Assembly (NCBI GenBank): GCA_003648285.1
Contig: QMOR01000002.1
Coordinates: forward strand, 1-37,798
DNA: 37,798 bases
Source of the DNA: Bacteroidota bacterium
GTDB taxonomy: Bacteria; Bacteroidota; Bacteroidia; Chitinophagales; Saprospiraceae
Direction of reading: 5' to 3'
The stretch's first letter is position 1. Each line of letters begins with the position of its first letter. The notes beneath the pieces were generated by a model. The model was not told the DNA's origin. It ran no database searches and worked only from the letters and a program-made list of their open reading frames with translations. Positions 3,334 through 35,800 of the stretch are shown here, piece by piece. A program made the translations under genes and the position numbers.

Positions 3334-5061
3334 ATGAAACAATATCTCCTGGTCCTTGCAGTCTTGTTATCAGTCTTGAGTTGCAATCAGGACTTACTGG
3401 ATTTTAATCTATTTGACGCGAAAAGTGATGCGGTGTTTAGCGCCTTTGTCGAAGTGTTTTATGAGGACGGGAATCCCGCGAAGAACGCGCTGGTCATAGT
3501 GGACAAGATTTCAGTTCTGACAGATGCGTCGGGTATGGCATATATCAAGGATATCGAGATGGATTCGTCCGTTTATCTTGTCGTGAGCAAGGGTGATTAT
3601 TTTCATGCTTCGAGGCGCTTTACACCAATAAAGAATGAAGCTCAGTATATCAAAGTTGTTCTGTTAAGCGCTGAGCCGATTGGTCAACTACAAGCTCAGG
3701 ATGGTGGCGTCATGATTATAGACGAGAACGCCGAATTGGACTTTCCACCGAATGCCATCCAATATGCAAATGGCCTTTCATATTTCGGAACAGTATCCGT
3801 TAGTGCCAAATCCATTGCAGCCAATGACCCGGATATGTCCTTTAAAATGCCGGGTGATTTGATGGGTGAGGCTTTGGATGGCGAGACAGTAGCCTTGGGA
3901 AGTATGGGTATGGTAGCAGTTGAATTACGTGGGCAACACGGAGAAGTTTTACAAGTGAAGACAGGCATGCAGGTGGGATTAACGATACGTGTGCCAACGG
4001 AGCAGCAGGCAAGTGCCCCGGCCACAATTCCTTTATGGTATTTTGATGAGGACGCGGGAATTTGGAAAGAGGAGGGAGAGGCAACATTTATCCTCGATAA
4101 ATATGTTGGGTACGTCAGCCATTTTTCGTATTGGAATTGTGACGCAAGCTTTTCTTTAGTTGAATGGAATGCATCGTTTTATTATGAAAGTGGCCCCGCA
4201 TCAAATGTGACAGTTTGTATCACAATCATTTCTCTGAACACTACAAGGTGTGCGTATGCAAACAACCAAGGTGAGGTGAGGGGGAGTATACCGGCAGGTG
4301 AGCGGTTGTTGTTGGAGGTGTATGACAAATGTGGGGCGCCTGCGTTTTCGGGCGAAATTGGCCCATTTTCTGAACCTGCAACTACATACCAATCGCTTGA
4401 CGAAGAGTCACTGGGAGTGTTAAGCGTTACTGGAAAGGCCGTAGATTGCAACGGGCATGCGGTTGTAAATGGGTACGCTATAGTGAGAATCGGTGCATTG
4501 ACATCATACGCTGAACTTGATAAAAGCAATGGTGCATTTGAGATACGTGCTGCACATTGCGTTGAAGATGAAGTTTTGATTACAATAGTTGACGTAGAAG
4601 AATCCAGGCACAGCTTTATTCAGAAATACGAATATTCAAATACCATTAATGCTGGATCAATATCGGTATGTGACCCAGTGAGAGACCAGATTGTAATTGA
4701 TGTCGAAGGACTTGGAAAATTCGTGTTTCATGAAGTGCCAGCACGACTAGTCCGGGGATATACTTCGATAGGTATACCTGATAGTGTACCAATTAATACA
4801 GCGTACATATCTATGCAATTTGAAGGGCAATCGCAGGGAAATTTCAATGCGTGGATGACAGTGAATTTGGAATTGCCCGATGGAGAATTTATAAATATAC
4901 GCGGGAAAGAGAGAGGTGTAAATGTCTTCATTGCCAATTATGGAGAGGTCGGTGATTATGTCATTGGTACAATATCGGGAACTTTGAAGGAGTATAATTC
5001 TGGCACTGACGGCAAGGAGTATGAGTTCAATGGGACGATATCCGCACTGAGGGAGAGATAA
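3334..5061 (+). CDS. Secreted modular lipoprotein with carboxypeptidase-regulatory/beta-sandwich-like domains
   Basis: SPII signal MKQYLLVLAVLLSVLSC; repeated beta-rich segments (VEVFYEDGNPAKNALVIVDKISVLTDASGMAYI..., TGKAVDCNGHAVVNGYAIV...). Confidence 0.7.
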   Translation: MKQYLLVLAVLLSVLSCNQDLLDFNLFDAKSDAVFSAFVEVFYEDGNPAKNALVIVDKISVLTDASGMAYIKDIEMDSSVYLVVSKGDYFHASRRFTPIKNEAQYIKVVLLSAEPIGQLQAQDGGVMIIDENAELDFPPNAIQYANGLSYFGTVSVSAKSIAANDPDMSFKMPGDLMGEALDGETVALGSMGMVAVELRGQHGEVLQVKTGMQVGLTIRVPTEQQASAPATIPLWYFDEDAGIWKEEGEATFILDKYVGYVSHFSYWNCDASFSLVEWNASFYYESGPASNVTVCITIISLNTTRCAYANNQGEVRGSIPAGERLLLEVYDKCGAPAFSGEIGPFSEPATTYQSLDEESLGVLSVTGKAVDCNGHAVVNGYAIVRIGALTSYAELDKSNGAFEIRAAHCVEDEVLITIVDVEESRHSFIQKYEYSNTINAGSISVCDPVRDQIVIDVEGLGKFVFHEVPARLVRGYTSIGIPDSVPINTAYISMQFEGQSQGNFNAWMTVNLELPDGEFINIRGKERGVNVFIANYGEVGDYVIGTISGTLKEYNSGTDGKEYEFNGTISALRER

Positions 5062-17416: not shown

Positions 17417-17998
17417 ATGGCAGTTGATGATACAAGAGAAAAAATATTGAGTGTTGCTGACAAGCTGTTCGGTCGATTTGGGTTTCATAAGACATCCATG
17501 GATGAGATTGCGAAAATTGCAAGGAAGGCTAAAGGGTCACTATACTACCATTTTACTAGTAAGGAGGATTTGTTTAGAGAAGTTGTGTCCTATGAAATAC
17601 TCAATCTAGAAAAGCATCTGTCCGTGATAGTTTTGGATTCAAAATTAAATGCATCGGACAAATTGAAAAAGTACCTGGTAAAAAGGATGGCAATCTTGTC
17701 TGATGCTGCTAACTATCATGAAACTCTAAGAGCGGATTTTTTCGAGCATTTCAATTTTATTGATGGCCTGAGGAGTGAATTTGACTTTTGGGAAAAGGAA
17801 ATGTTACGAAGAATTATAATGGAGGGCGTTGAGGGAAAAGAATTTGCTCCTGTAGAAAACATGGACGTATTGTTGGAGTTGCTGATCATGGTATTAAAGG
17901 GACTGGAGATTCCATTTTTTTTACAAGACAAATACGTGAATTATGCACCACATTTTGAGGGCTTGATGCGCATTCTTACAAGAGGGCTGTCGGTCTGA
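17417..17998 (+). CDS. TetR/AcrR family transcriptional regulator
   Basis: N-term HTH TREKILSVADKLFGRFGFHKTSMDEIAKIARKAKGSLYYHFTSKEDLFREV. Confidence 0.93.
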   Translation: MAVDDTREKILSVADKLFGRFGFHKTSMDEIAKIARKAKGSLYYHFTSKEDLFREVVSYEILNLEKHLSVIVLDSKLNASDKLKKYLVKRMAILSDAANYHETLRADFFEHFNFIDGLRSEFDFWEKEMLRRIIMEGVEGKEFAPVENMDVLLELLIMVLKGLEIPFFLQDKYVNYAPHFEGLMRILTRGLSV

Positions 17999-18079
17999 TA
18001 TTTTTTTGACCTATACTGACTATAAAACATAAATCGTCCATAACGTTTATACAAGATAAAATTGAGTAAAACAAGATAA

Positions 18080-20341
18080 TTGATGAGGAAAGTGGCAGAA
18101 ATAGTATTGCGGTTTAGAGTGCTGATCGTTGTGATGACATTGCTATTCACGGCGGCTACCGGGTATTTTATTAAGGACGTAAAAATCAATCCTGATATTT
18201 TAAGTTACTTGCCTGATGATGATGAGGAGGCTATGTTGTTTGACATGGTTGGAGAGAAGTATGGCGGTAATTATGTCGCTCTAATTGGTCTTGAATCTGA
18301 TGATGTATTTGACAATGAAGTTCTAACTCACGTAAAAGTACTCACAGATACCCTTAGAACATTGGACGGCGTATCGTATGTAACAAGTCTCACCGATGTC
18401 ATTGATATAAAAAGTAGTGAATGGGGTGTTGAAATTGGCAAACTGGTTGATGAATATAATTTGCCGGAAAGTGATGAAGACGTTAGGAAGCTTAAAGAAT
18501 ATACGTTGTCTAAGGATTTTTACAAAGGGGTTATTGTTTCCGAGGATGCAACGCTCACGTTGATTTACGTCAAGATTAGTGAAGGGGTTGATAAGATTGA
18601 AGTGGCAAACAACATTGTAGCGGCAGTTGAAAGCTATAATTATCCTGAAAAAATTCATTTTGCTGGACTTCCTGTGATGCTTGACCAGTTTAGCAAAATC
18701 GTGGTGGATGATCTTTTGCTGGTTGGTCCCTTGGCCCTGTTGATAATCCTTTTAGTACTCTTCTTCGCGTTTAGAAGCGCGGCAGGAGTGATTCTGCCAA
18801 TTGTAACTGTAATTATCAGTGTGACATGGACAGTAGGGATTATGGGCTACCTGGGAGTGGAATTTTCGTTAATTACCAACATCATTCCGATTATTTTACT
18901 TGCGATTGGAAGCGCTTACACTATTCATGTCTTGAATAGAATAAATGAGACAGAGGACGAGGATAAAGTCAAGAAAATAGAAAAAGCTTTGGCCTATATA
19001 ATAATACCGGTATTGTTGGCATCGCTAACCACGATGGTAGGATTTCTTTCATTTGTGTTTGGATCGTACTTAACGATGATAAGTACATTTGGACTGTTTA
19101 CGGCGTTGGGCACTTTTTTCGCGCTTGTATTGTCATTAACATTTGCGCCTGCCTTGTCTGCGATATTTCTGGGTAGGAAGTCAAAAGGTAACGCTACATT
19201 AAGGAGTAACAACAAGTCTTTTCTAACTAAAGTATTGACTAAGCTATTTTATACAGTTCAGTCACATCCAAAGTACATTGTGTCTATTTGGTTGCTTGTA
19301 ATAATGATTTCAATTTTTGGCATTTCCAATATTGTGCGAAAAAGCAATATGGTTGAGTACTTTAAGAAGGATCATACAACAAGAGTTTCTGAGAACCTAT
19401 TTTCTGAAAAACTGGGCGGGACACTTCCGGTTTACTTAATTGTAAAAGGGAATACGCAAAGCCCTGAAGTGCTGAGAATGATGAGAAAGGCTGCCGATTT
19501 TATGGAAGGCACAGGTCATGTTGTGAACACTCAGTCTGTGGCCGATATGATTGAAGAGATGAATGATATTATGGGAACTGATGGCAAGGTTATCCCAGAT
19601 AGAGAAGATAAGATTATAAATCTTTGGTTTTTAATTGAAGGCCAGGAAGTGCTGGATCAGATGGTAAGCCCTGATTTGGATGAGGGAATGGTGGTTGGAA
19701 CATTCACGTCAAATGATAGTCGTGTTATGGCAGAATTTATTGCGGAAGTAAATGAATTCATTGCTGAGAATGACAGTGATAACTACTCTTTGGCTTTAAC
19801 CGGGTTTCCCTCTTTGTATAAGAAACTGGATGAAAGCCTTGTCAAGAGTCAATTAACGAGCCTTTCTATAGCCATTCTATTGGTACTGCTTATTGTATCA
19901 GTCACGTTCAGGTCGCTATTGGAAGGGGCCTACGCAATTATTCCTATTGTATCTACATTAGTCATATTATTTGGATTTATGGGGCTTACTGGTATTCCTT
20001 TAGATGTTGCTACTGTACTGGTAGGAAGTATCTGTATTGGCATTGGCGTAGATTATGCAATCCACATGATTTCCCATATTAACAATGAGTACAAAAATAC
20101 TGGTGAATTCACATTGGCCTTGCAGCATGCAGTTAGTATCAGTGGGAGAGCAATCGTAATAAACGTGATGTCAGTCGCATGCGGCTTTTTGGTTTTGCTA
20201 TTTTCGAACTTGGTGCCGTTACAAAATTTTGGCGTTTTGGTTGCCTTAACAATGATTGTTTCGGGTTTAGGGGCGCTTACGCTAATGCCTGCAATTATGG
20301 TTTTGAGTAAGAGGATATTGAAATTGGCCATTCGCCGTTAG
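18080..20341 (+). CDS. MMPL/RND-superfamily transporter with two SSD-like halves
   Basis: About 753 aa with two repeats of a periplasmic loop plus TM bundle; ILSYLPDDDEEAMLFD; GVDYAIHMISHINNEYKNTGEF; IGSAYTIHVLNRI in the first half. Confidence 0.9.
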   Translation: MMRKVAEIVLRFRVLIVVMTLLFTAATGYFIKDVKINPDILSYLPDDDEEAMLFDMVGEKYGGNYVALIGLESDDVFDNEVLTHVKVLTDTLRTLDGVSYVTSLTDVIDIKSSEWGVEIGKLVDEYNLPESDEDVRKLKEYTLSKDFYKGVIVSEDATLTLIYVKISEGVDKIEVANNIVAAVESYNYPEKIHFAGLPVMLDQFSKIVVDDLLLVGPLALLIILLVLFFAFRSAAGVILPIVTVIISVTWTVGIMGYLGVEFSLITNIIPIILLAIGSAYTIHVLNRINETEDEDKVKKIEKALAYIIIPVLLASLTTMVGFLSFVFGSYLTMISTFGLFTALGTFFALVLSLTFAPALSAIFLGRKSKGNATLRSNNKSFLTKVLTKLFYTVQSHPKYIVSIWLLVIMISIFGISNIVRKSNMVEYFKKDHTTRVSENLFSEKLGGTLPVYLIVKGNTQSPEVLRMMRKAADFMEGTGHVVNTQSVADMIEEMNDIMGTDGKVIPDREDKIINLWFLIEGQEVLDQMVSPDLDEGMVVGTFTSNDSRVMAEFIAEVNEFIAENDSDNYSLALTGFPSLYKKLDESLVKSQLTSLSIAILLVLLIVSVTFRSLLEGAYAIIPIVSTLVILFGFMGLTGIPLDVATVLVGSICIGIGVDYAIHMISHINNEYKNTGEFTLALQHAVSISGRAIVINVMSVACGFLVLLFSNLVPLQNFGVLVALTMIVSGLGALTLMPAIMVLSKRILKLAIRR

Positions 20342-20389
20342 GTCATAATTATTAATACTATTAATTAATATGATTATAATTTAGGAAAT

Positions 20390-21121
20390 ATGAGAAATAC
20401 TAGAAGCACATTACTCACAATTGCAATCCTTTTGACTGCTATGAGTATGTATGCACAAGATGCAAACGCAATTTTAAGTAAAGTGGATGACGTTATGTTT
20501 TCTCCTAAGGATATGTCAGGTAAAACAAAAATTGTTTTGATAGACAAGAATGGGAAGGAGAAGACGCGAGAGGCAATCATGGTGCAAAAAGGAACGGACA
20601 AACGTATTTTTCGATTCACGGCACCTGCTTCGCAAGATGGGATAGCCGTTTTGTCTCTCCCGGATGATGTAATGTATTTGTATCTGCCGGCCTACGGAAA
20701 AGAAAGAAGGATATCAACGTCTGTGAAGAGCCAAAATTTCGCTGGTACTGACTTTTCGTATGATGATATGGAAGCAAAGCCCAATTCAGAAAAGTACACG
20801 CCAAAGCTAATTGAGGCGAGGGGAGATGTGTTTGTTCTCGAGCTTACACCAAAGTCTCCAAAATCCCCTTATTCAAAAATCGTAATGGAAGTGCATGCAA
20901 CACATTACTACCCTGTTTCAGGAGATTATTACGATAAGAGTGGTAAAGTAATAAAAGAGGCTACTTCAAATTATGTGAAAATTGGAGATTATTGGAATGC
21001 TCAGGAGATGGTCATGACTGATTTGAAAAAGAACCATACTACCAGGATGATAATGTCCGACGTAAAGTATGATCAAAATTTGTCTGATGACGAGTTTACT
21101 ATTAGGAAGTTGAAACAATAG
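20390..21121 (+). CDS. LolA-like / outer membrane lipoprotein-sorting protein family (periplasmic)
   Basis: Signal peptide ending MYAQD; PKDMSGKTKIVLIDKNGKEKTREAIMVQKGTDKRIFRFTAPASQDGIAVLSLPDDVMYLYLPAYGKERRI...GTDFSYDDM; ends KYDQNLSDDEFTIRKLKQ. Confidence 0.85.
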   Translation: MRNTRSTLLTIAILLTAMSMYAQDANAILSKVDDVMFSPKDMSGKTKIVLIDKNGKEKTREAIMVQKGTDKRIFRFTAPASQDGIAVLSLPDDVMYLYLPAYGKERRISTSVKSQNFAGTDFSYDDMEAKPNSEKYTPKLIEARGDVFVLELTPKSPKSPYSKIVMEVHATHYYPVSGDYYDKSGKVIKEATSNYVKIGDYWNAQEMVMTDLKKNHTTRMIMSDVKYDQNLSDDEFTIRKLKQ

Positions 21122-21130
21122 ATATATCTT

Positions 21131-22693
21131 ATGCGAAAGAAATCGGTTGCACTTGTTCTCTCAGGTGGAGGGTCAAAGGGTCTTGCTCATATTGGAGTAA
21201 TTAATGAGCTAGAACGGCAGGGATTTGAAATCACATCTATCTCTGGATCCTCTATTGGGGCTGTGATCGGTGGGGTATATGCCATGGGCAAATTGCCAGA
21301 GTACACTGAATGGGTTAAAACACTGAAGCCACATTCAGTATGGAGCTTAATGGACTTTACATTTTCAAGCCGCGGACTCCTGAAAGGTGAAAAAGTTTTT
21401 GAAAAAATGAAAACATTTATACCTGATATCGACATAGAAAGTATGAATATCCCTTTTGCAGCTGTCGCAACTGATATTTTGAATGAACAGGAAGTGGTTT
21501 TTACATCGGGTAGTTACTATGAGGCGATCAGGGCGTCGGTGGCCATCCCTGCCATATTTACCCCTGTTAAGTATAGGGATACGTTTCTAGTCGATGGTGC
21601 AATAATCAACCCGATCCCAATTGAACATGTGCAATGTGGTGCAAATGATTTGTTGGTAGTAGTGAGCCTTTACGGAGAAAGGAATGGAGAGGCAGTAGAG
21701 GGAGAGAAGATCGTGCAAGAAGAATCAGTGTCTGCTAAAATTACTGAGTTCGTAAATATGACCAGTAGCTTGATGAGCTCCGGCAAAAAAACAAGTTTGG
21801 GGTATTACTCACTTATAAATAGGACAACATCGGTGATGATTCATCAATTAGCAAGGCATATCATTGAAAGGCGTAGCCCAGACATGTTGATCAGTATGCC
21901 AGCTGATTCATCCAACATTTTCGATTTTTATAAATCTGAAGAGCTAATTGAACTGGGACATAGATATGCAAGTACGGAAATTTCAAAGTATTGTTCTCCT
22001 CTGACGTTAAAGACTTCAGCTGTAATATGCGCTTATAATGAAGAAAGTACTATTCAGAGTGTTTTGATTGCTATTTCTAATTACTCCTTCGACGAAGTTA
22101 TTATTGTCAATGATGGCTCTACGGACAATACAGATGCCTTGATTTTAGAATTAGTGGATTCACATCGCTTAAAGTATATCAAGTTGCCTGAAAATAAAGG
22201 CAAGGGATTTGCCATGGCGACAGGGATAGAAAGTGCAAGTAATGACATTATTTTATTCCTTGATGCGGACATGTTGAATTTCAAAAATGAGCATTTTGCT
22301 CGGATGCTTCAGCCTCTGCAAAGTGAAGAAATGGACATGGTACTGGGTCAGCCCAGTGAAACTCTGATTAACTCCAATTTTAATCCCTTTAAGTCATTCA
22401 CTGGCCAGCGCGCATTGTTGAAAAAGGATGTGCTTCCAATTCTTGATAAAATGAAGGTATCCAGATTCGGAGTAGAGACTCTGATAAACTTATACTTTCA
22501 ATCGAAAGGGAAAAGAATAAAACATATCATGCTTGACGGCCTTGAACATCCTACCAAGTTTGAAAAAACAACTTCTGCTCAGGCAGTTAAGGAATTTGCA
22601 ATGGAAGGACAGGAAATTGCTCTGACTACTGCAAAAAATTTGGGACTGATTGTGGATATAGTAAACAATTATATTTCAAAGCACACGCAATGA
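21131..22693 (+). CDS. Patatin-like phospholipase fused to GT2-family glycosyltransferase
   Basis: N-terminal patatin motifs LSGGGSKGLAHIG, GSSIG (GxSxG) and LVDGAIINP (DGA). C-terminal (about residue 295 on) GT2 motifs SAVICAYNEESTIQSVL, VIIVNDGSTDNT, ILFLDADM. One uninterrupted ORF. Confidence 0.92.
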   Translation: MRKKSVALVLSGGGSKGLAHIGVINELERQGFEITSISGSSIGAVIGGVYAMGKLPEYTEWVKTLKPHSVWSLMDFTFSSRGLLKGEKVFEKMKTFIPDIDIESMNIPFAAVATDILNEQEVVFTSGSYYEAIRASVAIPAIFTPVKYRDTFLVDGAIINPIPIEHVQCGANDLLVVVSLYGERNGEAVEGEKIVQEESVSAKITEFVNMTSSLMSSGKKTSLGYYSLINRTTSVMIHQLARHIIERRSPDMLISMPADSSNIFDFYKSEELIELGHRYASTEISKYCSPLTLKTSAVICAYNEESTIQSVLIAISNYSFDEVIIVNDGSTDNTDALILELVDSHRLKYIKLPENKGKGFAMATGIESASNDIILFLDADMLNFKNEHFARMLQPLQSEEMDMVLGQPSETLINSNFNPFKSFTGQRALLKKDVLPILDKMKVSRFGVETLINLYFQSKGKRIKHIMLDGLEHPTKFEKTTSAQAVKEFAMEGQEIALTTAKNLGLIVDIVNNYISKHTQ

Positions 22694-22715
22694 TTATCTA
22701 AGTAAATCAGAAGAA

Positions 22716-24098
22716 ATGATCCGAATATATTTCGCTGTTGCCTCCTTGTCAGTTTTCTTCCTGTTCTCCAGTGTAGTACATGCTCAGGATGTCGTTAACA
22801 AGCTTAAACTGACCGGAGAATTACTAACAGACCAGCGCTTCTTGTTAGACGCTCCACATGACTGGGCCTGGAACGAGAATCGTTTAACTCTAAGGTTGAG
22901 TAAGAACATATCAGGTAATTCAAAATTTCATAGTGAAATTTGGGTGCGGAATATTGGTCTTCCTACTGTGAGTTCATCCGCTGACTTATACAATAAGGGG
23001 ATAATTGACCCTATTAATCTAGAAATACGCGAGGCATACGTTCAGTTGTTTGGATTTTTATCAAAGAATTTGGATGTTAAAATCGGACGTCAAAGGATAG
23101 CATGGGGAACGGCGGATAAGCTAAATCCAACGGATAATCTGAATCCTTATGATTTGGAGGACATATTAGATTTTGGGAGACATAGAGGATCTGATGCCTT
23201 AAGTTTGGATTATTACTTTAATTCGGATTTTTCATTACAAACGGTCTATATCCCATTTTTTCAACCGGCAAATTTACCTGTTGGCATTTTTGCAAATGCC
23301 CTTACACCAAGTATGGAATTGCCGCCTGGAATGACTTTGGTGGATTTTACGGATTCAGTTGAGTTGCCGAGGTATAATCTGGCCGAAAGCTCTACAGCTG
23401 GAGTAAAATTAAAGGGTTTTGCTGTCGGGTTTGATTTTTCAGTAAGTTATGTATGGGGAAGAGATGGTTTGCCAATGAGTGTGTATAATAGTTTTGCACC
23501 TGTCGATACATTGGGTGGGGTGAGCATTAATTCGCAGTTGTCATTCTATCGCACGCACATATTCGGATTTGATATGGCTGGCAGTATTGGTGGTGTAGGT
23601 GTATGGGCAGAGGCAGGATTGTTTTTGCCTGAAAATGAAGTGATTATGACCACGGATCTAACAAAGTTCTTTCCTGGCTCGCCTGAACCGGTAATCATGG
23701 ACTCAGTTGTCTTGGAAAAAGAAGTATATGCTAAATTCGTAGTAGGTGCAGATTATAATTTTTCTAATGGAATATACTTGAATATCCAATATTTACATGG
23801 CTTCGTAAATGAGAGGGGTAGGGATGGTTTGAATGATTATTTTTTCGTTCAGCTTGAGAAAAAGTTCTTCGATGAAAAATTGAAAATTGTACCATTAGCC
23901 GGCGGCTTTATAGTTTCTGATTGGAGGAATGTAAGTGAGAATTATACTGTAATTTATATTCCGAGTATGTCTTATATGGCTACTGATAATGCAGAAATAG
24001 TGCTTTCAACAGCCCTTTTTACTGGGAAAGGAGAAAATGTATTTGCCAGTTTGACGGATTATGATATGTTTATGTTTAAATTGAAATATAGTTTTTAA
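22716..24098 (+). CDS. Outer-membrane beta-barrel / DUF1302-like porin
   Basis: Signal peptide ending VVHAQD; alternating beta-strand pattern; NLDVKIGRQRIAWGTADKLNPTDNLNPYDLEDILDFGR; aromatic C-term FMFKLKYSF. Confidence 0.75.
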   Translation: MIRIYFAVASLSVFFLFSSVVHAQDVVNKLKLTGELLTDQRFLLDAPHDWAWNENRLTLRLSKNISGNSKFHSEIWVRNIGLPTVSSSADLYNKGIIDPINLEIREAYVQLFGFLSKNLDVKIGRQRIAWGTADKLNPTDNLNPYDLEDILDFGRHRGSDALSLDYYFNSDFSLQTVYIPFFQPANLPVGIFANALTPSMELPPGMTLVDFTDSVELPRYNLAESSTAGVKLKGFAVGFDFSVSYVWGRDGLPMSVYNSFAPVDTLGGVSINSQLSFYRTHIFGFDMAGSIGGVGVWAEAGLFLPENEVIMTTDLTKFFPGSPEPVIMDSVVLEKEVYAKFVVGADYNFSNGIYLNIQYLHGFVNERGRDGLNDYFFVQLEKKFFDEKLKIVPLAGGFIVSDWRNVSENYTVIYIPSMSYMATDNAEIVLSTALFTGKGENVFASLTDYDMFMFKLKYSF

Positions 24099-28599: not shown

Positions 28600-29205
28600 A
28601 TGTCAAGAGAGGAAGTACTAGAGGGAGCGAAGGAACTTTTCTTGCGATACGGCATTAAGAGCATCACCATGGATGACGTGGCAAGAGAAATGGGCATATC
28701 CAAAAAGACACTCTATCAGCATGTCAAGAACAAAACTGACCTGATAGAGCGGATCATTCATCAACACATTCACGATGAGAAAAAATGTCTGAGTGAATTG
28801 CCTGGCCAGGCACACGATGCGATCGAGCAGGTACTGATGATTGCACAGTATGTGGTCCAGATTTTAAGAGGGATGCGGCCAACTACGATGTTTGACCTGA
28901 AAAAATACTATCGCGAATGCTGGAACATGATGGAGGAGTTTCAGCATGAGTATATGTACGAAATGATTCGCGGCAATATTGAACAGGGAGTCAAAGAAGG
29001 CTTGTACAAGGATGACCTTGATGCTGACATTATCGCCAAACTCTATATTGGAAAAACCATGCTCCTGACTGATGAAAAATTATTTCCAGTAGGGGAATAT
29101 GATCGTGATAAGCTTTTTACTGAATTTATTCAATATCACCTGCGCGGAATTGTATCCGAGAAGGGAACGAAGCAGCTCGAAACCTACCAACCCGATTACC
29201 TATGA
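28600..29205 (+). CDS. TetR/AcrR family transcriptional regulator of efflux operon
   Basis: SREEVLEGAKELFLRYGIKSITMDDVAREMGISKKTLYQHVKNKTDLIERI; overlaps the next gene by 4 bp (ATGA). Confidence 0.93.
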   Translation: MSREEVLEGAKELFLRYGIKSITMDDVAREMGISKKTLYQHVKNKTDLIERIIHQHIHDEKKCLSELPGQAHDAIEQVLMIAQYVVQILRGMRPTTMFDLKKYYRECWNMMEEFQHEYMYEMIRGNIEQGVKEGLYKDDLDADIIAKLYIGKTMLLTDEKLFPVGEYDRDKLFTEFIQYHLRGIVSEKGTKQLETYQPDYL

Positions 29206-30524
29206 TCAAATATTTCATTACGCTGCTACTCGTCTTGCCGACGGTATTTGCTCAGGCGCAATGGCAGCTCTCGCTTGAGCAGACGATCGCTTATGCGATG
29301 GAAAATGCGGCCAATATCAAGCTGGAAAAGAAGGACATCGAAGATGCTGAGAGTCAGATCCTGGAGTTTAAGTCCATCGGTATTCCGAAACTTGACGCCA
29401 ACGTAGACTACGCTTATTTTCTAGCATTACCAACAATCCAGATACCGGATTTTAACGATCCATCAGGACCCACTATTCCGGCACAATTCGGTACCGATAA
29501 CAGACTTGATGCCGGCTTTTACCTCGATATGATGCTGTTTGATTTTTCATGGATACAGGGATTGCGTGCGCAGAAAATGTTCAGAGAGCTTGTTGTCAAG
29601 GAACTGGACGTCACCGAGTATCAGACACGGTCGACAATCACACGCGCATACATGGCCGTGTTGATCATGGAGCGGACGAATGAACTCATTGATAATAATA
29701 TCAGCAACATAGAAAAACTTCACAGGGAGACAGAAGCATTGTATGAAACGGGGTTTGCAGAGAAATTGGATGTTGACCGGCTTGTATTTTCACTGAGTAA
29801 TTTGAATGTGGAAAAAGAAAGGGCGCTACGGGCGATAGATATGAGCGAAAATCTTTTGAAGTTTCAAATGGGATTTCCCGTGATAGAAGAAATTGAGCTC
29901 ACAGATGAATTTGATATCATTGCTGACCAGCTTTCGGTAGAATCAATTGATCTGACGGGAGGTGTCGATTATCAGGCAAGGCCGGAATACAGAGCGCTGA
30001 CATTGCTCGAGGAATTAAACGAAACCAATGTCAAGGTAGTCAAGGCAGGGTATATGCCGAGTTTCAGGGGGCATGCATCATATGCGCAAACCTTGCAACG
30101 CGACGAATTGTTTGATGCAAATAGTTCGTCCTGGTTTCCAAGTAGTGTGCTGGGTGTATCAATGAATCTTCCAATTTTCGACGGTCTGGAACGGAAGGCT
30201 AAAATACAACGGGCAACAATCAATTCGGAAAAAGCATCAATACGCCGGTTGGATTTTGAAAATGCCATGGAAATGGAAGTGCGCAATGCGCGCATTGCAT
30301 ATATCAATGCGAGGGATGCATCTGTGTCGCGTTCTGATGCGATGGACCTCGCGCAATCAATATACGATGTCACACAAATTAAATACCGCGAAGGGGTAGG
30401 TTCGAGTGTCGAGCTGACCCAGGCGGAATCTGAACTATACACTGCACAAACAAATTATATCAATGCGCTCTATGAACTCATCGTCACCAAGACAGATTTG
30501 GACATCGCGCTTGGCAAAATGTAA
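29202..30524 (+). CDS. TolC-family outer membrane efflux protein
   Basis: Signal peptide; LSLEQTIAYAMENAANIKLEKKDIEDAESQILE; YREGVGSSVELTQAESELYTAQTNYINALYELIVTKTDLDIALGKM. Confidence 0.93.
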   Translation: MIKYFITLLLVLPTVFAQAQWQLSLEQTIAYAMENAANIKLEKKDIEDAESQILEFKSIGIPKLDANVDYAYFLALPTIQIPDFNDPSGPTIPAQFGTDNRLDAGFYLDMMLFDFSWIQGLRAQKMFRELVVKELDVTEYQTRSTITRAYMAVLIMERTNELIDNNISNIEKLHRETEALYETGFAEKLDVDRLVFSLSNLNVEKERALRAIDMSENLLKFQMGFPVIEEIELTDEFDIIADQLSVESIDLTGGVDYQARPEYRALTLLEELNETNVKVVKAGYMPSFRGHASYAQTLQRDELFDANSSSWFPSSVLGVSMNLPIFDGLERKAKIQRATINSEKASIRRLDFENAMEMEVRNARIAYINARDASVSRSDAMDLAQSIYDVTQIKYREGVGSSVELTQAESELYTAQTNYINALYELIVTKTDLDIALGKM

Positions 30525-30528
30525 ACAC

Positions 30529-31710
30529 ATGACCACAAGAATAAGCCTTGTAATAATTGCCTTGGTTCTGCTCGGTTGTAGTGCCCGTCCGATTCAGGAC
30601 GAGGGCGCTTTACCTACTGATCTGTCCGGGTTGAAAGCCATGAGAAAGGACAAAAGGAATGAGATCAAGATGCTTCAAAACGACCTGAAAGAGATTGAAG
30701 CAAAGATCACGGATTTAGAACCGAATCGCCTGGACAAGAAGCGCCTTGTAACAACAATTGAGGTAGTGCGTAGTGACTTTAGGCGCTATGCTACGATCCA
30801 GGGGGCAATTGCATCAAAGAATCTCGTGACAGTTTCGAGTGAAGTTCCGGGTCGCCTTACTTCGGTTACGGTCGATGAAGGGCATCCAGTTAAGCGTGGT
30901 CAACTCATCGCTTCGGTGGATTTAGAGTCATTGAAGAAACAGCGTCAGGAACTCGAGACGCAATTGGAATTGGCTCGTGATATTTTCGAGAGGCAGGAGC
31001 GGCTTTGGAAGCAGCAAATAGGCTCAGAAGTGCAATACCTCCAGGCAAAAAACGGTGTGGACAGATTAGAAAGGAGTATCGAAACCATCGATTATTCGTT
31101 AACCAAATCAAATATTTACGCACCAATAACGGGTGTCGTGGATATCGTAAATCTCAAGACCGGTGAAATGGCACAACCAGGCATGCCAATCATCATGATT
31201 CTTGACACGAGGAATATCATGGTAGTGGCTGATGTTCCCGAAAACTACCTCGGTAAAATAAAGAAGGGTGATATTGTCAAAATTCATTTTCCCGCACTCG
31301 ATCAGGATATCGAAGCGCCGGTCACGTTAATTGGCAGAAAGATCCATCCTGCAAACAGAACATTTAAAATTGAGATTGACCTGCCGAATAAAAGTGGATT
31401 GCTTAAACCCAATTTGCTTTCTGAGGTGCAGATCAATGACTATGTCGAACCTGATGTGATTGTGATTTCACAGGAATTGATTCAACAGGAAGTAGGAGGT
31501 CGCGATTTTGTGATATTGGCTGAGTCTGATGATGAAGGTAGCCATGCAAAGAAAATTTATATAGAAACTGGTCAAAGTTACGAAGGAGCTGTTGTGGTGG
31601 CGACCGGACTTAAAGCAGGGGATGTATTGGTAGTAGAGGGTGCGCGAGGGATTGCTGACCTTGAAAGTATTCAAATCCTTAATCCGGAAACTGCGACCGA
31701 TGACAAATAA
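30529..31710 (+). CDS. RND efflux periplasmic adaptor (HlyD/MFP family) lipoprotein
   Basis: SPII signal MTTRISLVIIALVLLGC; SEVPGRLTSVTVDEGHPVKRGQLIASVD; coiled-coil; NIYAPITGVVDIVNLKTGEMAQPGMPIIMI. Confidence 0.93.
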   Translation: MTTRISLVIIALVLLGCSARPIQDEGALPTDLSGLKAMRKDKRNEIKMLQNDLKEIEAKITDLEPNRLDKKRLVTTIEVVRSDFRRYATIQGAIASKNLVTVSSEVPGRLTSVTVDEGHPVKRGQLIASVDLESLKKQRQELETQLELARDIFERQERLWKQQIGSEVQYLQAKNGVDRLERSIETIDYSLTKSNIYAPITGVVDIVNLKTGEMAQPGMPIIMILDTRNIMVVADVPENYLGKIKKGDIVKIHFPALDQDIEAPVTLIGRKIHPANRTFKIEIDLPNKSGLLKPNLLSEVQINDYVEPDVIVISQELIQQEVGGRDFVILAESDDEGSHAKKIYIETGQSYEGAVVVATGLKAGDVLVVEGARGIADLESIQILNPETATDDK

Positions 31711-34700
31711 AATAAAAGAGGGGATACGCAATTTTGGCCTTACTTCTCTTGCCGTCGATAATGCGACGAGTGTTTTCCTGATGACGTTTATGATCATGAT
31801 CTTTGGAATCATGTCATATGACCAGATGCCAAAGGAGCAGTACCCGGAAGCAGCCTTTCCCACTGTATTTATCAACACACCGTACTTTGGAAATTCGGCA
31901 AAGGATATCGAGAGTCTTGTCACGAAACCCATTGAAAAAGAATTGCAGAGTATTGAAGGGGTAGAGGATATCAGTTCCACATCAATTCAGGATTACTCAG
32001 TCATCACTGCCGAATTCGGAACTGACATGGACATGGATGACGTCATCAGGAAGGTGAAAGATGCCGTTGATAATGCAAAAAAAGAGCTTCCTAACGACCT
32101 GGATGACGACCCGATGGTCGTGGAGGTAAATGCTTCCGAATTTCCAATCATGACGATCAATATGTCAGGGGATTTTGGCATGGACGAACTCAGAGAATAT
32201 GCTGAGTACATGGAAGATGAGATAGAGGATATGGATGAGATATCCAAAGTCGTGATCAAGGGTGTACTGGAGCGCGAGGTGAAGATAGATATTGACATGA
32301 TCAAAATGATGTCCCTGAAAGTGTCATTTGAGGACATCGAGAATGCGATTTCTGCCGAGAATATAACGATGTCAGCAGGTGAGATTGTCAGGAATGATTT
32401 CCGACGCGCCATACGTGTTGTAGGTGAGTTTGAGACGATGGAGGATATCGAAAATGTCATTGTCAAAAGTGAAAACCAGCGTCCGATTTTCCTGCGGGAT
32501 ATTGGTAAAGTCACGTATGGTTTCAAGGACAGAACCAGTATTGCGCGTTCTGACGGCTTTCCGGTTGCATCGCTTGACGTGATTAAACGATCGGGAGAGA
32601 ACCTCCTGAATGCTTCCGATAAAATAAAACTGGTCATCGAAGAGGCAGAGAAAAATGTACTGCCTTCTGATATGAAAATCACCATCTTCAATGATCAAAG
32701 TATCAATACACGAAATCAGGTCAATAACCTGGAGAACAGCATTATTTCAGGCGTCATACTTGTCGTGATTGTATTGCTTTTCTTCCTTGGCTTGCGTAAT
32801 GCCGTGTTTGTGGGAATGGCAATACCGCTGTCAATGCTGACCGGTATTATTGTATTGCATGCAACTGGCACTACGATGAACCTTGTCGTATTATTCGGAT
32901 TAATATTGGCGCTGGGCATGCTCGTTGACAATGGGATCGTAGTCGTAGAGAATGTCTACCGGTATATGCAGAATGGGAAGTCCGGGGATGTTTCTGCAAA
33001 ACAGGGCACTGGTGAAGTGGCCTGGCCAATTATTGCATCGACAGCAACAACGCTTGCTGCATTTCTTCCTCTCGCATTCTGGCCCGGCATAATGGGGGAG
33101 TTCATGCTATACTTGCCTCTGACGTTAATTATCGTATTGTCTTCCTCACTGTTTGTCGCACTGGTGATTAATCCTGTGTTTACAGCAAAGCTGATGAAGG
33201 TCGATAAGTTTAAAGAGGATAAGGCAGTTCGGAAACGCAAGCGTCGCAATGTGTTGTTAGGCGTGCTCATGATGCTCGTTGTAGCATTAGTGGGGCATCT
33301 GACGAAAATCTATGCGATGCGGAATTTATTGGTATTGGTGGCCATCATTACACTCATAAATACTTTCGTTCTGCGTGGGGCTTCTATCTACTTCCAGAAG
33401 AATATCATGGTGGCTCTTGAACGGGCATACGACCGATTCGTACGAATGGCTTTGCATAAATTATTTCCTGTGGCGACGTTCGCAGGTACAATTGGATTAT
33501 TGTTTTTTGCGATATGGTTGCTGTCGGTAAAAATGCCCAAAGTGGAGTTTTTCCCGAACATCGATGCTATTTATATCAATGCATTTGTCGAGTTGCCTAT
33601 TGGCAAAGACATAGAAGCGACAAATGCTATCATGCTTAAAATGGAGGAGCGCGTCACGGAAGCGATGGCCCCCTACGAAAGTATTATTGAGTCTATTTTG
33701 TCACAGATTGGGGCGAATACTGCAGATCCAAATACGCCTCCGGAGCCTGGTGTGACTCCACACAAGGCGAGGCTTACTGTTGCATTTGTTCCAACCGAAG
33801 ACCGGGATGGTGTGTCAACCCGTGATGCCCTGGATGATTTGCGTGAAGCAGTATTGGGTGTATATCCCGGTGTGCAGGTCGTGGTCGATCAGAATGCGTC
33901 CGGACCACCCGCAGGAAAGCCAGTAAATCTTGAATTGTCAGGCGAGAGCATCGATGTGCTGGCGATTGAATCAGAAAAGCTGATCTCGTATTTGAACAGC
34001 TATGGGATCCCGGGTATTGAACAACTTCAGGCAGACGTGAAAAACGGGAAGCCGGAATTAATTATCAATATCGACAGGGATGCTGCAAGAAGATACCAGC
34101 TGTCCACATATAGTATCGCTAATGCCATTCGAACTTCTGTCTTCGGAAAAGAAGTCTCAAAGTTTAAAGTGGGAGATGATGAGTATCCAATTCAACTTAG
34201 GCTGGACCCGCGATACCGGCATAATGTAACAGATTTGCTCAATCAAAAAGTGACATTTCGCAATCAGTCAACAGGGAAAATAATTCAGGTACCGATATCA
34301 GCGGTGGCAACGGTTACGAATACTTCGACGTACAGTGCAGTCAAACGTAAAAATTCGGATCGGGTCATCACGATATTTTCAAATGTACTCGAGGGGTACA
34401 ATGCAAATGAAATTGTAGCCCAATTGCGGGATGCCATGACTGAATATGATTTGCCGGTTGGATACAATTATGAGTTTACGGGGGAGCAAGAGCAGCAGGC
34501 TGAGGACATGGCGTTTCTGGCAAATGCATTTCTGATTGCCTTATTTTTAATTTTTATCATCCTCGTTTCTCAATTTAATTCACTGACGTCGCCATTCATT
34601 ATTATGATTTCTGTGCTGTTCAGCACGATAGGGGTGTTTCTTGGATATGCCTTGACTGGTATGACGATATCCGTCATATTTACGGGTGTTGGTCTGGTGT

Positions 34701-35155
34701 CGCTGGCAGGAGTTGTCGTGAATAATGCAATTGTACTCGTGGACTACATTAGTTTGCTCATTAAGAGAAAACGGTTGGAGAAGAATGTGAAAAGTATGTT
34801 TGACCTGACAAAAGATGAGGTAAAGAACGCTATTATAGATGCCGGATCTACAAGATTACGACCGGTCCTTTTAACAGCTATCACAACTATTCTTGGATTG
34901 ATACCGCTGGCTATAGGATTCAATTTTAATTTCTTCACCTTTATTAGTGATCTTGATCCACAGTATTTTGTGGGTGGCGATAATAGTGCAATGTGGGGTC
35001 CAATGGCCTGGACTGTTATTTATGGCCTTGTATTTGCTACATTTTTGACGCTGATAGTTGTGCCGGTCATGTACTGGTTGGCATATCGGGGAAAGCTCGT
35101 TTTACGTCAGTTACTTTCGGGAAAAAAGGAGAATAGTATAACTCCTGCAACATAA
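31700..35155 (+). CDS. RND efflux inner-membrane transporter (AcrB/HAE1-like)
   Basis: Start Met at 31700 (MTNKIKEG), 11-bp overlap with the MFP gene; about 1151 aa; ILALGMLVDNGIVVVENVYRYMQNG; GVGLVSLAGVVVNNAIVLVDYI; RLRPVLLTAITTILGLIPLAIG. Confidence 0.95.
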   Translation: MTNKIKEGIRNFGLTSLAVDNATSVFLMTFMIMIFGIMSYDQMPKEQYPEAAFPTVFINTPYFGNSAKDIESLVTKPIEKELQSIEGVEDISSTSIQDYSVITAEFGTDMDMDDVIRKVKDAVDNAKKELPNDLDDDPMVVEVNASEFPIMTINMSGDFGMDELREYAEYMEDEIEDMDEISKVVIKGVLEREVKIDIDMIKMMSLKVSFEDIENAISAENITMSAGEIVRNDFRRAIRVVGEFETMEDIENVIVKSENQRPIFLRDIGKVTYGFKDRTSIARSDGFPVASLDVIKRSGENLLNASDKIKLVIEEAEKNVLPSDMKITIFNDQSINTRNQVNNLENSIISGVILVVIVLLFFLGLRNAVFVGMAIPLSMLTGIIVLHATGTTMNLVVLFGLILALGMLVDNGIVVVENVYRYMQNGKSGDVSAKQGTGEVAWPIIASTATTLAAFLPLAFWPGIMGEFMLYLPLTLIIVLSSSLFVALVINPVFTAKLMKVDKFKEDKAVRKRKRRNVLLGVLMMLVVALVGHLTKIYAMRNLLVLVAIITLINTFVLRGASIYFQKNIMVALERAYDRFVRMALHKLFPVATFAGTIGLLFFAIWLLSVKMPKVEFFPNIDAIYINAFVELPIGKDIEATNAIMLKMEERVTEAMAPYESIIESILSQIGANTADPNTPPEPGVTPHKARLTVAFVPTEDRDGVSTRDALDDLREAVLGVYPGVQVVVDQNASGPPAGKPVNLELSGESIDVLAIESEKLISYLNSYGIPGIEQLQADVKNGKPELIINIDRDAARRYQLSTYSIANAIRTSVFGKEVSKFKVGDDEYPIQLRLDPRYRHNVTDLLNQKVTFRNQSTGKIIQVPISAVATVTNTSTYSAVKRKNSDRVITIFSNVLEGYNANEIVAQLRDAMTEYDLPVGYNYEFTGEQEQQAEDMAFLANAFLIALFLIFIILVSQFNSLTSPFIIMISVLFSTIGVFLGYALTGMTISVIFTGVGLVSLAGVVVNNAIVLVDYISLLIKRKRLEKNVKSMFDLTKDEVKNAIIDAGSTRLRPVLLTAITTILGLIPLAIGFNFNFFTFISDLDPQYFVGGDNSAMWGPMAWTVIYGLVFATFLTLIVVPVMYWLAYRGKLVLRQLLSGKKENSITPAT

Positions 35156-35161
35156 TGATAC

Positions 35162-35800
35162 ATGATTAACCTGGATCACTTTCGAAAAGAATTCGACAAG
35201 GACAAGTTGGACAAGGGCAGTGTCAAGAAGGACCCATTTGCACAGTTTGATGTTTGGCATAAGGAGGTGATGCATGTCGATGCGGAGGGAGCGATCACGA
35301 TGACCTTATCGACCGTGGATTCTCTCGGTCAGCCTTCATCGCGGATCGTACTGCTACGCACGCTGGGAGAAGAGGGATTTGGCTTTTTTACGAATTTAAC
35401 GAGCCGCAAGGCGATTGAAATAGATGGGAATCGTCAGGCTTCGTTATTATTCTTTTGGAGGAATTTTCAACGCCAGGTCAGGATCGAAGGAGAACTGATC
35501 AGAATGCCTGTAGAAGTTGAAGACGAGTATTTTGCCGGTCGGCCAAGAGGCAGCCAGATAGGCGCTTGGAGCTCGCCACAGAGCGCCTCGATTCCCGATC
35601 GCAAGAGCCTTGAAAAGATGGTGCGCGAGTATACAGATCGCTTTGAGGGAAAGGATGTCCCACGTCCCAGCTACTGGGGTGGATTCATTCTTGATCCCAA
35701 AAGAGTAGAGTTTTGGCAGGGTCGCGAGAGCCGCTTACATGATCGCATCGTCTATAGCAAAGTCGACAATGGTTGGAAGATCGAGCGTCTGGCGCCTTGA
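35162..35800 (+). CDS. pdxH: Pyridoxamine 5'-phosphate oxidase
   Basis: DPFAQFDVWHKEV; PSSRIVLLRTLGEEGFGFFTNLTSRKA; RQVRIEGE; SQIGAWSSPQS; PSYWGGFILDPKRVEFWQGRESRLHDR. Confidence 0.96.
   Translation: MINLDHFRKEFDKDKLDKGSVKKDPFAQFDVWHKEVMHVDAEGAITMTLSTVDSLGQPSSRIVLLRTLGEEGFGFFTNLTSRKAIEIDGNRQASLLFFWRNFQRQVRIEGELIRMPVEVEDEYFAGRPRGSQIGAWSSPQSASIPDRKSLEKMVREYTDRFEGKDVPRPSYWGGFILDPKRVEFWQGRESRLHDRIVYSKVDNGWKIERLAP

Follow-up and report, generated by a model that had tools for sequence, protein, structure and literature searches.

In the aryl polyene clusters of E. coli, an RND transporter (ApeM) is found with a LolA-like chaperone (ApeL), a lysophospholipid acyltransferase (ApeD), and ApeJ, which is annotated as a glycosyltransferase/acyltransferase; for these proteins a role has been proposed in attaching a lipid and exporting it to the outer membrane (PMC8253772). 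AmeABCD from Castellaniella defragrans includes a DUF1302 outer-membrane protein, a periplasmic protein of the LolA superfamily, and an RND inner-membrane transporter, and is linked to monoterpene efflux (PMC6394551). A third group of genes, PG1175–PG1181 of the iron-dependent stimulon of Porphyromonas gingivalis, brings together an outer-membrane lipoprotein-sorting protein, an MMPL transporter, and a TetR protein (PMC10434189).

Here we describe a locus from a draft genome of an uncultured Bacteroidota bacterium (GCA_003648285.1) that encodes a patatin and a glycosyltransferase (GT) as one protein. The window, meaning the whole stretch of DNA that was analysed, covers 37,798 nucleotides of contig QMOR01000002.1. 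The fusion is the fourth of five genes in a co-directional run of TetR, MMPL/HAE3 RND transporter, LolA-like protein, fusion, and DUF1302-type barrel, so that an RND pump, a LolA-like carrier, and a DUF1302 barrel lie in one run and would make up an exporter set of the Ame type. Ketosynthase, ACP, and dehydratase genes, by which an aryl polyene cluster would be recognised, are absent from the five operon genes (17417–24098) and their immediate neighbours. Other loci are referred to by our own L numbers.

Results

One reading frame joins a patatin to a GT-A glycosyltransferase

A single ORF at 21131–22693 on the forward strand begins with ATG and encodes 520 amino acids, and the frame passes from patatin to GT2 without a stop. 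Both domains score far above their Pfam cut-offs: Patatin (PF01734) at residues 8–165 (E 1e-26) reaches 94.8 bits where 27.7 are required, and Glycos_transf_2 (PF00535) at residues 296–422 (E 4.3e-27) reaches 95.5 bits where 23.3 are required. An earlier sequence-only reading had proposed a single fused ORF and called for a domain-architecture search, and this search finds both families above their cut-offs in the one unbroken frame. Its two-domain layout also holds, with the start of the GT domain moved from residue ~295 to ~291–293, which leaves almost no linker. Standalone patatins stop a few residues past Y287 and the initial Met of standalone GTs aligns near residue 293, and this places the domain border at about residue 290. 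The junction (21989–22018, forward strand) reads YCSPLTLKTS and contains neither a stop codon for the patatin nor a start codon for the GT.

The patatin domain (residues ~1–290; 21131–22000, forward strand) belongs to PF01734 by its score and by the GxSxG Ser, the DG[GA] Asp, and the glycine-rich oxyanion loop. These motifs are GGGSKG at 12–17, GSSIG at 39–43 with S41, and DGA at 155–157 with D155, the Ser41/Asp155 dyad. The closest NCBIfam model is NF007623 (RssA; E 1.1e-49), and the score of 169.3 bits against a curated cut-off of 272 makes this half RssA-like and not RssA. PlpD is the nearest solved structure both by sequence (E 3.9e-30) and by structure. A signal peptide was not seen when the patatin sequence was read for one, and we therefore place the fusion in the cytoplasm.

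The GT domain (residues ~291–520; 22001–22690, forward strand) belongs to the GT2/GT-A group by its PF00535 score, a DXD-type metal motif, and the GT-A fold of its model. Its motifs include NDGSTD (327–332), DAD (378–380, with D378 and D380), GVE (447–449), and H473; from the layout of the motifs, H473 may share a role with the GpgS metal site. All 29 near-invariant GT positions (the same in at least 95% of relatives) are retained. A model of the domain from 75 sequences (pLDDT 86) has many GT-A matches, the best being GpgS, the nearest solved fold (E 6e-13, TM 0.68), followed by ArnC and GtrB. The resemblance to GpgS is one of fold only, since the GpgS model (NF010496) gives 54.3 bits against a curated cut-off of 262 and the sequence profile match to GpgS spans just the first half of the domain. 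For the whole protein an AlphaFold model reached a pTM of 0.53, at which neither the packing of the two domains nor a cleft shared by them is established; its alignment included two relatives with in-frame neighbours that were read through the patatin stop purely as a bridge.

The fusion lies in an operon with an RND transporter, a LolA-like protein, and a barrel

All genes of the operon are on the forward strand. The first encodes a TetR-family regulator (17417–17998; PF00440, E 1.3e-16) that is ~60–72% identical to the TetR in the same place of many related operons. It is followed by an MMPL/HAE3-type RND inner-membrane transporter (18080–20341; PF03176, E 1.2e-51), which also matches TIGR00921 (E 5.8e-88) under that model's curated cut-off, and by a LolA-like periplasmic lipid carrier (20390–21121; PF17131, E 2.1e-50). 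The last gene, after the fusion, encodes a DUF1302-type outer-membrane beta-barrel (22716–24098; PF06980, E 5e-7) whose counterparts in the same operon place are mostly 60–75% identical. Both the carrier and the barrel have an apparent signal peptide, as read from their sequences. Scans for promoters and terminators gave results at chance level.

The operon block (17417–24098) has 38–40% G+C as against 44–48% across most of the flanks, and G351 is the sole other genome of the family sample with strong matches to both halves of the fusion. Together, these data suggest that the block was acquired horizontally. A second exporter set (TetR, OEP, HlyD, and an RND transporter of the AcrB type) lies elsewhere in the window at 28600–35155, and a PNPOx gene comes next (35162–35800). 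A 575-aa ORF at 3334–5061 has no Pfam match at E 1e-5.

The patatin and the GT are separate neighbours in related operons

The usual home of a separate patatin and GT is an operon of TetR, MMPL RND transporter, LolA-like protein, in some cases acyltransferases, patatin, GT, and DUF1302-type barrel. This operon is conserved in Bacteroidota and apparently unstudied. In its fuller form in Bacteroidetes OLB9 (L074/L103), the order is TetR, MMPL, LolA-like, KASIII, methyltransferase, GNAT, SDR, PlsC-type acyltransferase, patatin, Acyltransf_2, GT2, GT2, and barrel, and short versions retain TetR, MMPL, LolA-like protein, patatin, GT, and barrel. Both domains of the fusion are 57–62% identical to those of operons of the L107, L092, and L074/L103 type.

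In two loci the patatin–GT pair lies behind TetR and three genes sized like HlyD, AcrB, and TolC, in place of the MMPL, LolA-like, and barrel genes (354, 1025, and 449 aa in L099, 1493–9553; 354, 1024, and 456 aa in L117, 1790–9550). These exporter genes were assigned by size and by a layout like that of L078, where Pfam identifies the three as HlyD, AcrB, and OEP. From these layouts, it appears that the patatin–GT pair is constant and the RND exporter interchangeable.

Other arrangements were also seen. In two related MAGs, the GT and the outer-membrane barrel form one 688-aa ORF (L146, 8897–10963; L148, 8777–10843), and the presence of an ATG and a signal-peptide-like sequence at the junction means that the barrel may start internally. 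A 289-aa ORF in L111 (2438–3307) matches a LolA-like protein and a barrel and lies beside a second set of operon genes; it is either a product of recombination between tandem operons or part of a chimeric contig.

The patatin–GT fusion is rare. Among ~1,650 genome look-ups, which were overlapping samples of relatives, order, phylum, family, and class, residues 1–520 were matched only by the window's own genome. Two GT-derived peptide patterns, scanned against 85,488 species genomes, gave 78 loci from the best 80 of 214 candidates; such a scan detects only genes bearing one of the two patterns and may omit records very close to the window's genome. Calling ORFs in these 78 loci and 12 further ones did not find a second patatin–GT ORF. 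Among the matches listed, the two are separate genes in all 61 distinct loci that hold both, and the genes are adjacent (–75 to +200 bp) in 43 of these and overlap in 24. The overlap is exactly 4 bp in 15 loci, which suggests translational coupling. The literature, as far as it was covered, held nothing relevant on patatin–GT fusions.

Because no other genome in these searches has the fusion, it appears to be dispensable for function. Functional coupling of the two halves, as the sequence-only reading had proposed, is probable and strongly backed by the neighbouring genes, the frequent 4-bp overlap, and the sharing of one operon; the relatives are split yet tightly linked.

Phylogenetic trees place the window GT in a supported clade of 22 rows (98/98) with L087, L086, and L117, in all three of which patatin and GT touch. 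The window patatin falls in a supported set of 29 rows, where it lies close to L099, L117, L087, and L098, its exact position being weakly supported. The window branches are long in the two trees (0.54 and 0.60). We also considered an origin of the fusion by deletion within an OLB9-like operon; this is not needed because the closest relatives already have the two genes side by side. Two divergent patatin paralogues occur close together in L087, L119, L121, and L131, directly adjacent in L087 and L131, and a division of labour between them is possible.

Discussion

We think it rather probable that neighbouring genes of one lipid-export operon have fused here and that their products are enzymes of one lipid-tailoring step that feeds an RND–LolA–barrel exporter. 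The N-terminal half, a cytoplasmic, membrane-facing patatin like RssA and PlpD, would cut or transfer an acyl chain of a membrane lipid. The C-terminal half, a metal-dependent GT-A enzyme with a GpgS-like fold, would then add a sugar to that lipid or to some product of its pathway. The MMPL RND pump would extract the glycolipid, the LolA-like protein would ferry it across the periplasm, and the DUF1302-type barrel would serve as the passage or the site for its delivery to the outer membrane, with TetR controlling the operon. We infer the lipid substrate, the order of the reactions, and the role in export; a lipid pathway is supported by the MMPL, LolA-like, and barrel context and by the PlsC-type and other acyltransferases of the fuller operons.

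Deacylation followed by glycosylation of one lipid is plausible. We put forward only tentatively, and with some doubt, the broader idea that a bifunctional enzyme deacylates and glycosylates one lipid, that an undescribed glycolipid enters the RND–LolA–barrel route, and that the pair is a widespread core in Bacteroidota.

The two halves might also have separate substrates within one pathway, with the fusion merely fixing their ratio. The patatin would then edit or recycle phospholipid acyl chains, and the GT would use another acceptor, either polyprenyl phosphate or a head group of the glycerate type. This has a fair amount in its favour, given that the closest matches of the GT are GpgS and enzymes that act on polyprenyl phosphate, ArnC and GtrB among them, and that operons like L074 have an acyltransferase and a second GT between patatin and GT. 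However, the tight adjacency and the 4-bp overlaps across many lineages favour a shared step, and we regard action on separate molecules as the lesser possibility, though one to be taken seriously.

It is unlikely, in our judgement, that the fused frame reflects a base error or a strain quirk in one draft assembly and that the organism truly has two overlapping genes. The fusion is known from a single draft genome that is 72.6% complete and in 290 contigs, and every other locus examined that holds both genes has them apart. In simulations over codons 281–292 (36 bases), 13 of the 36 single-base deletions and 132 of the 144 single-base insertions restored a patatin stop and a usable GT start within 20 codons. 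Against this, the remaining Pfam-matched genes of the window appear to be complete, without a broken frame among them, and the junction lacks a long homopolymer. Moreover, ATG, GTG, and TTG are absent at the position where relatives begin the GT: residues 266 to 311 contain no such codon, and the first one past the junction is residue 312, within the GT fold. Most split versions would therefore require an unusual N-terminal GT extension. We are fairly confident that the fusion is real.

Both active sites are intact, as the sequence-only reading had it, with the named motifs present and the catalytic residues conserved in relatives. S41 and D155 are kept in 69 of 69 relatives, so the variation in catalytic residues that would have spoken against that reading is not seen. 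Its patatin signature stands as regards Asp155, which is conserved; the DGA form is itself atypical, DGG being present in 68 of 69 relatives. The window retains 45 of the 48 near-invariant patatin positions (again the same in at least 95% of relatives), and the three departures are R2, A157 (DGG to DGA), and C169, the last at an Arg conserved in 68 of 69 relatives. The R169C change together with the long branches in both trees makes some relaxation of the patatin half possible. It is very improbable that activity is confined to the GT half and that the patatin half has been reduced to a decaying membrane anchor: R169C, the change of DGG to DGA, and the long branch would fit decay, but S41, D155, the glycine-rich loop, and the 45 near-invariant positions are kept, and Ala directly after the catalytic Asp is common among patatins. 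The positions kept in both halves argue against a dead fusion.

That genes which elsewhere simply lie side by side are fused here is good evidence for their joint action, but it adds only a little to what the operon already implies, and we give more weight to the conserved operon. What the fusion does is point to a Bacteroidota operon that ties a patatin and a glycosyltransferase to an RND exporter, a lipid carrier, and an outer-membrane barrel. Marinilabilia salmonicolor and Prolixibacter denitrificans carry the whole operon unfused, so the system can be tested.

As a comparison, the split-pair operons of M. salmonicolor (L107), P. denitrificans (L092), and OLB9 (L074/L103) share gene families and a similar order with the window operon. 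They differ in having two genes, and many add KASIII, methyltransferase, GNAT, SDR, PlsC, Acyltransf_2, and a second GT. The patatin-like phospholipases RssA and PlpD are of the same family as the N-terminal half but have no GT domain. GpgS (glucosyl-3-phosphoglycerate synthase) resembles the C-terminal half in fold and in its DXD-type metal site, but it is only ~21% identical to it and has no patatin. The E. coli aryl polyene clusters share the RND transporter and the LolA-like protein; the window operon differs from them in lacking ketosynthase, ACP, and dehydratase, in having a patatin in place of an acyltransferase, and in having a DUF1302-type barrel. The exporter core of the window may be related to the genes PG1175–PG1181 of P. 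gingivalis. AmeABCD shares the DUF1302/LolA/RND trio, and the passage that describes it mentions neither a patatin nor a GT (PMC6394551). For the export part of our model, the Ame system and the aryl polyene system (PMC8253772) offer a precedent.
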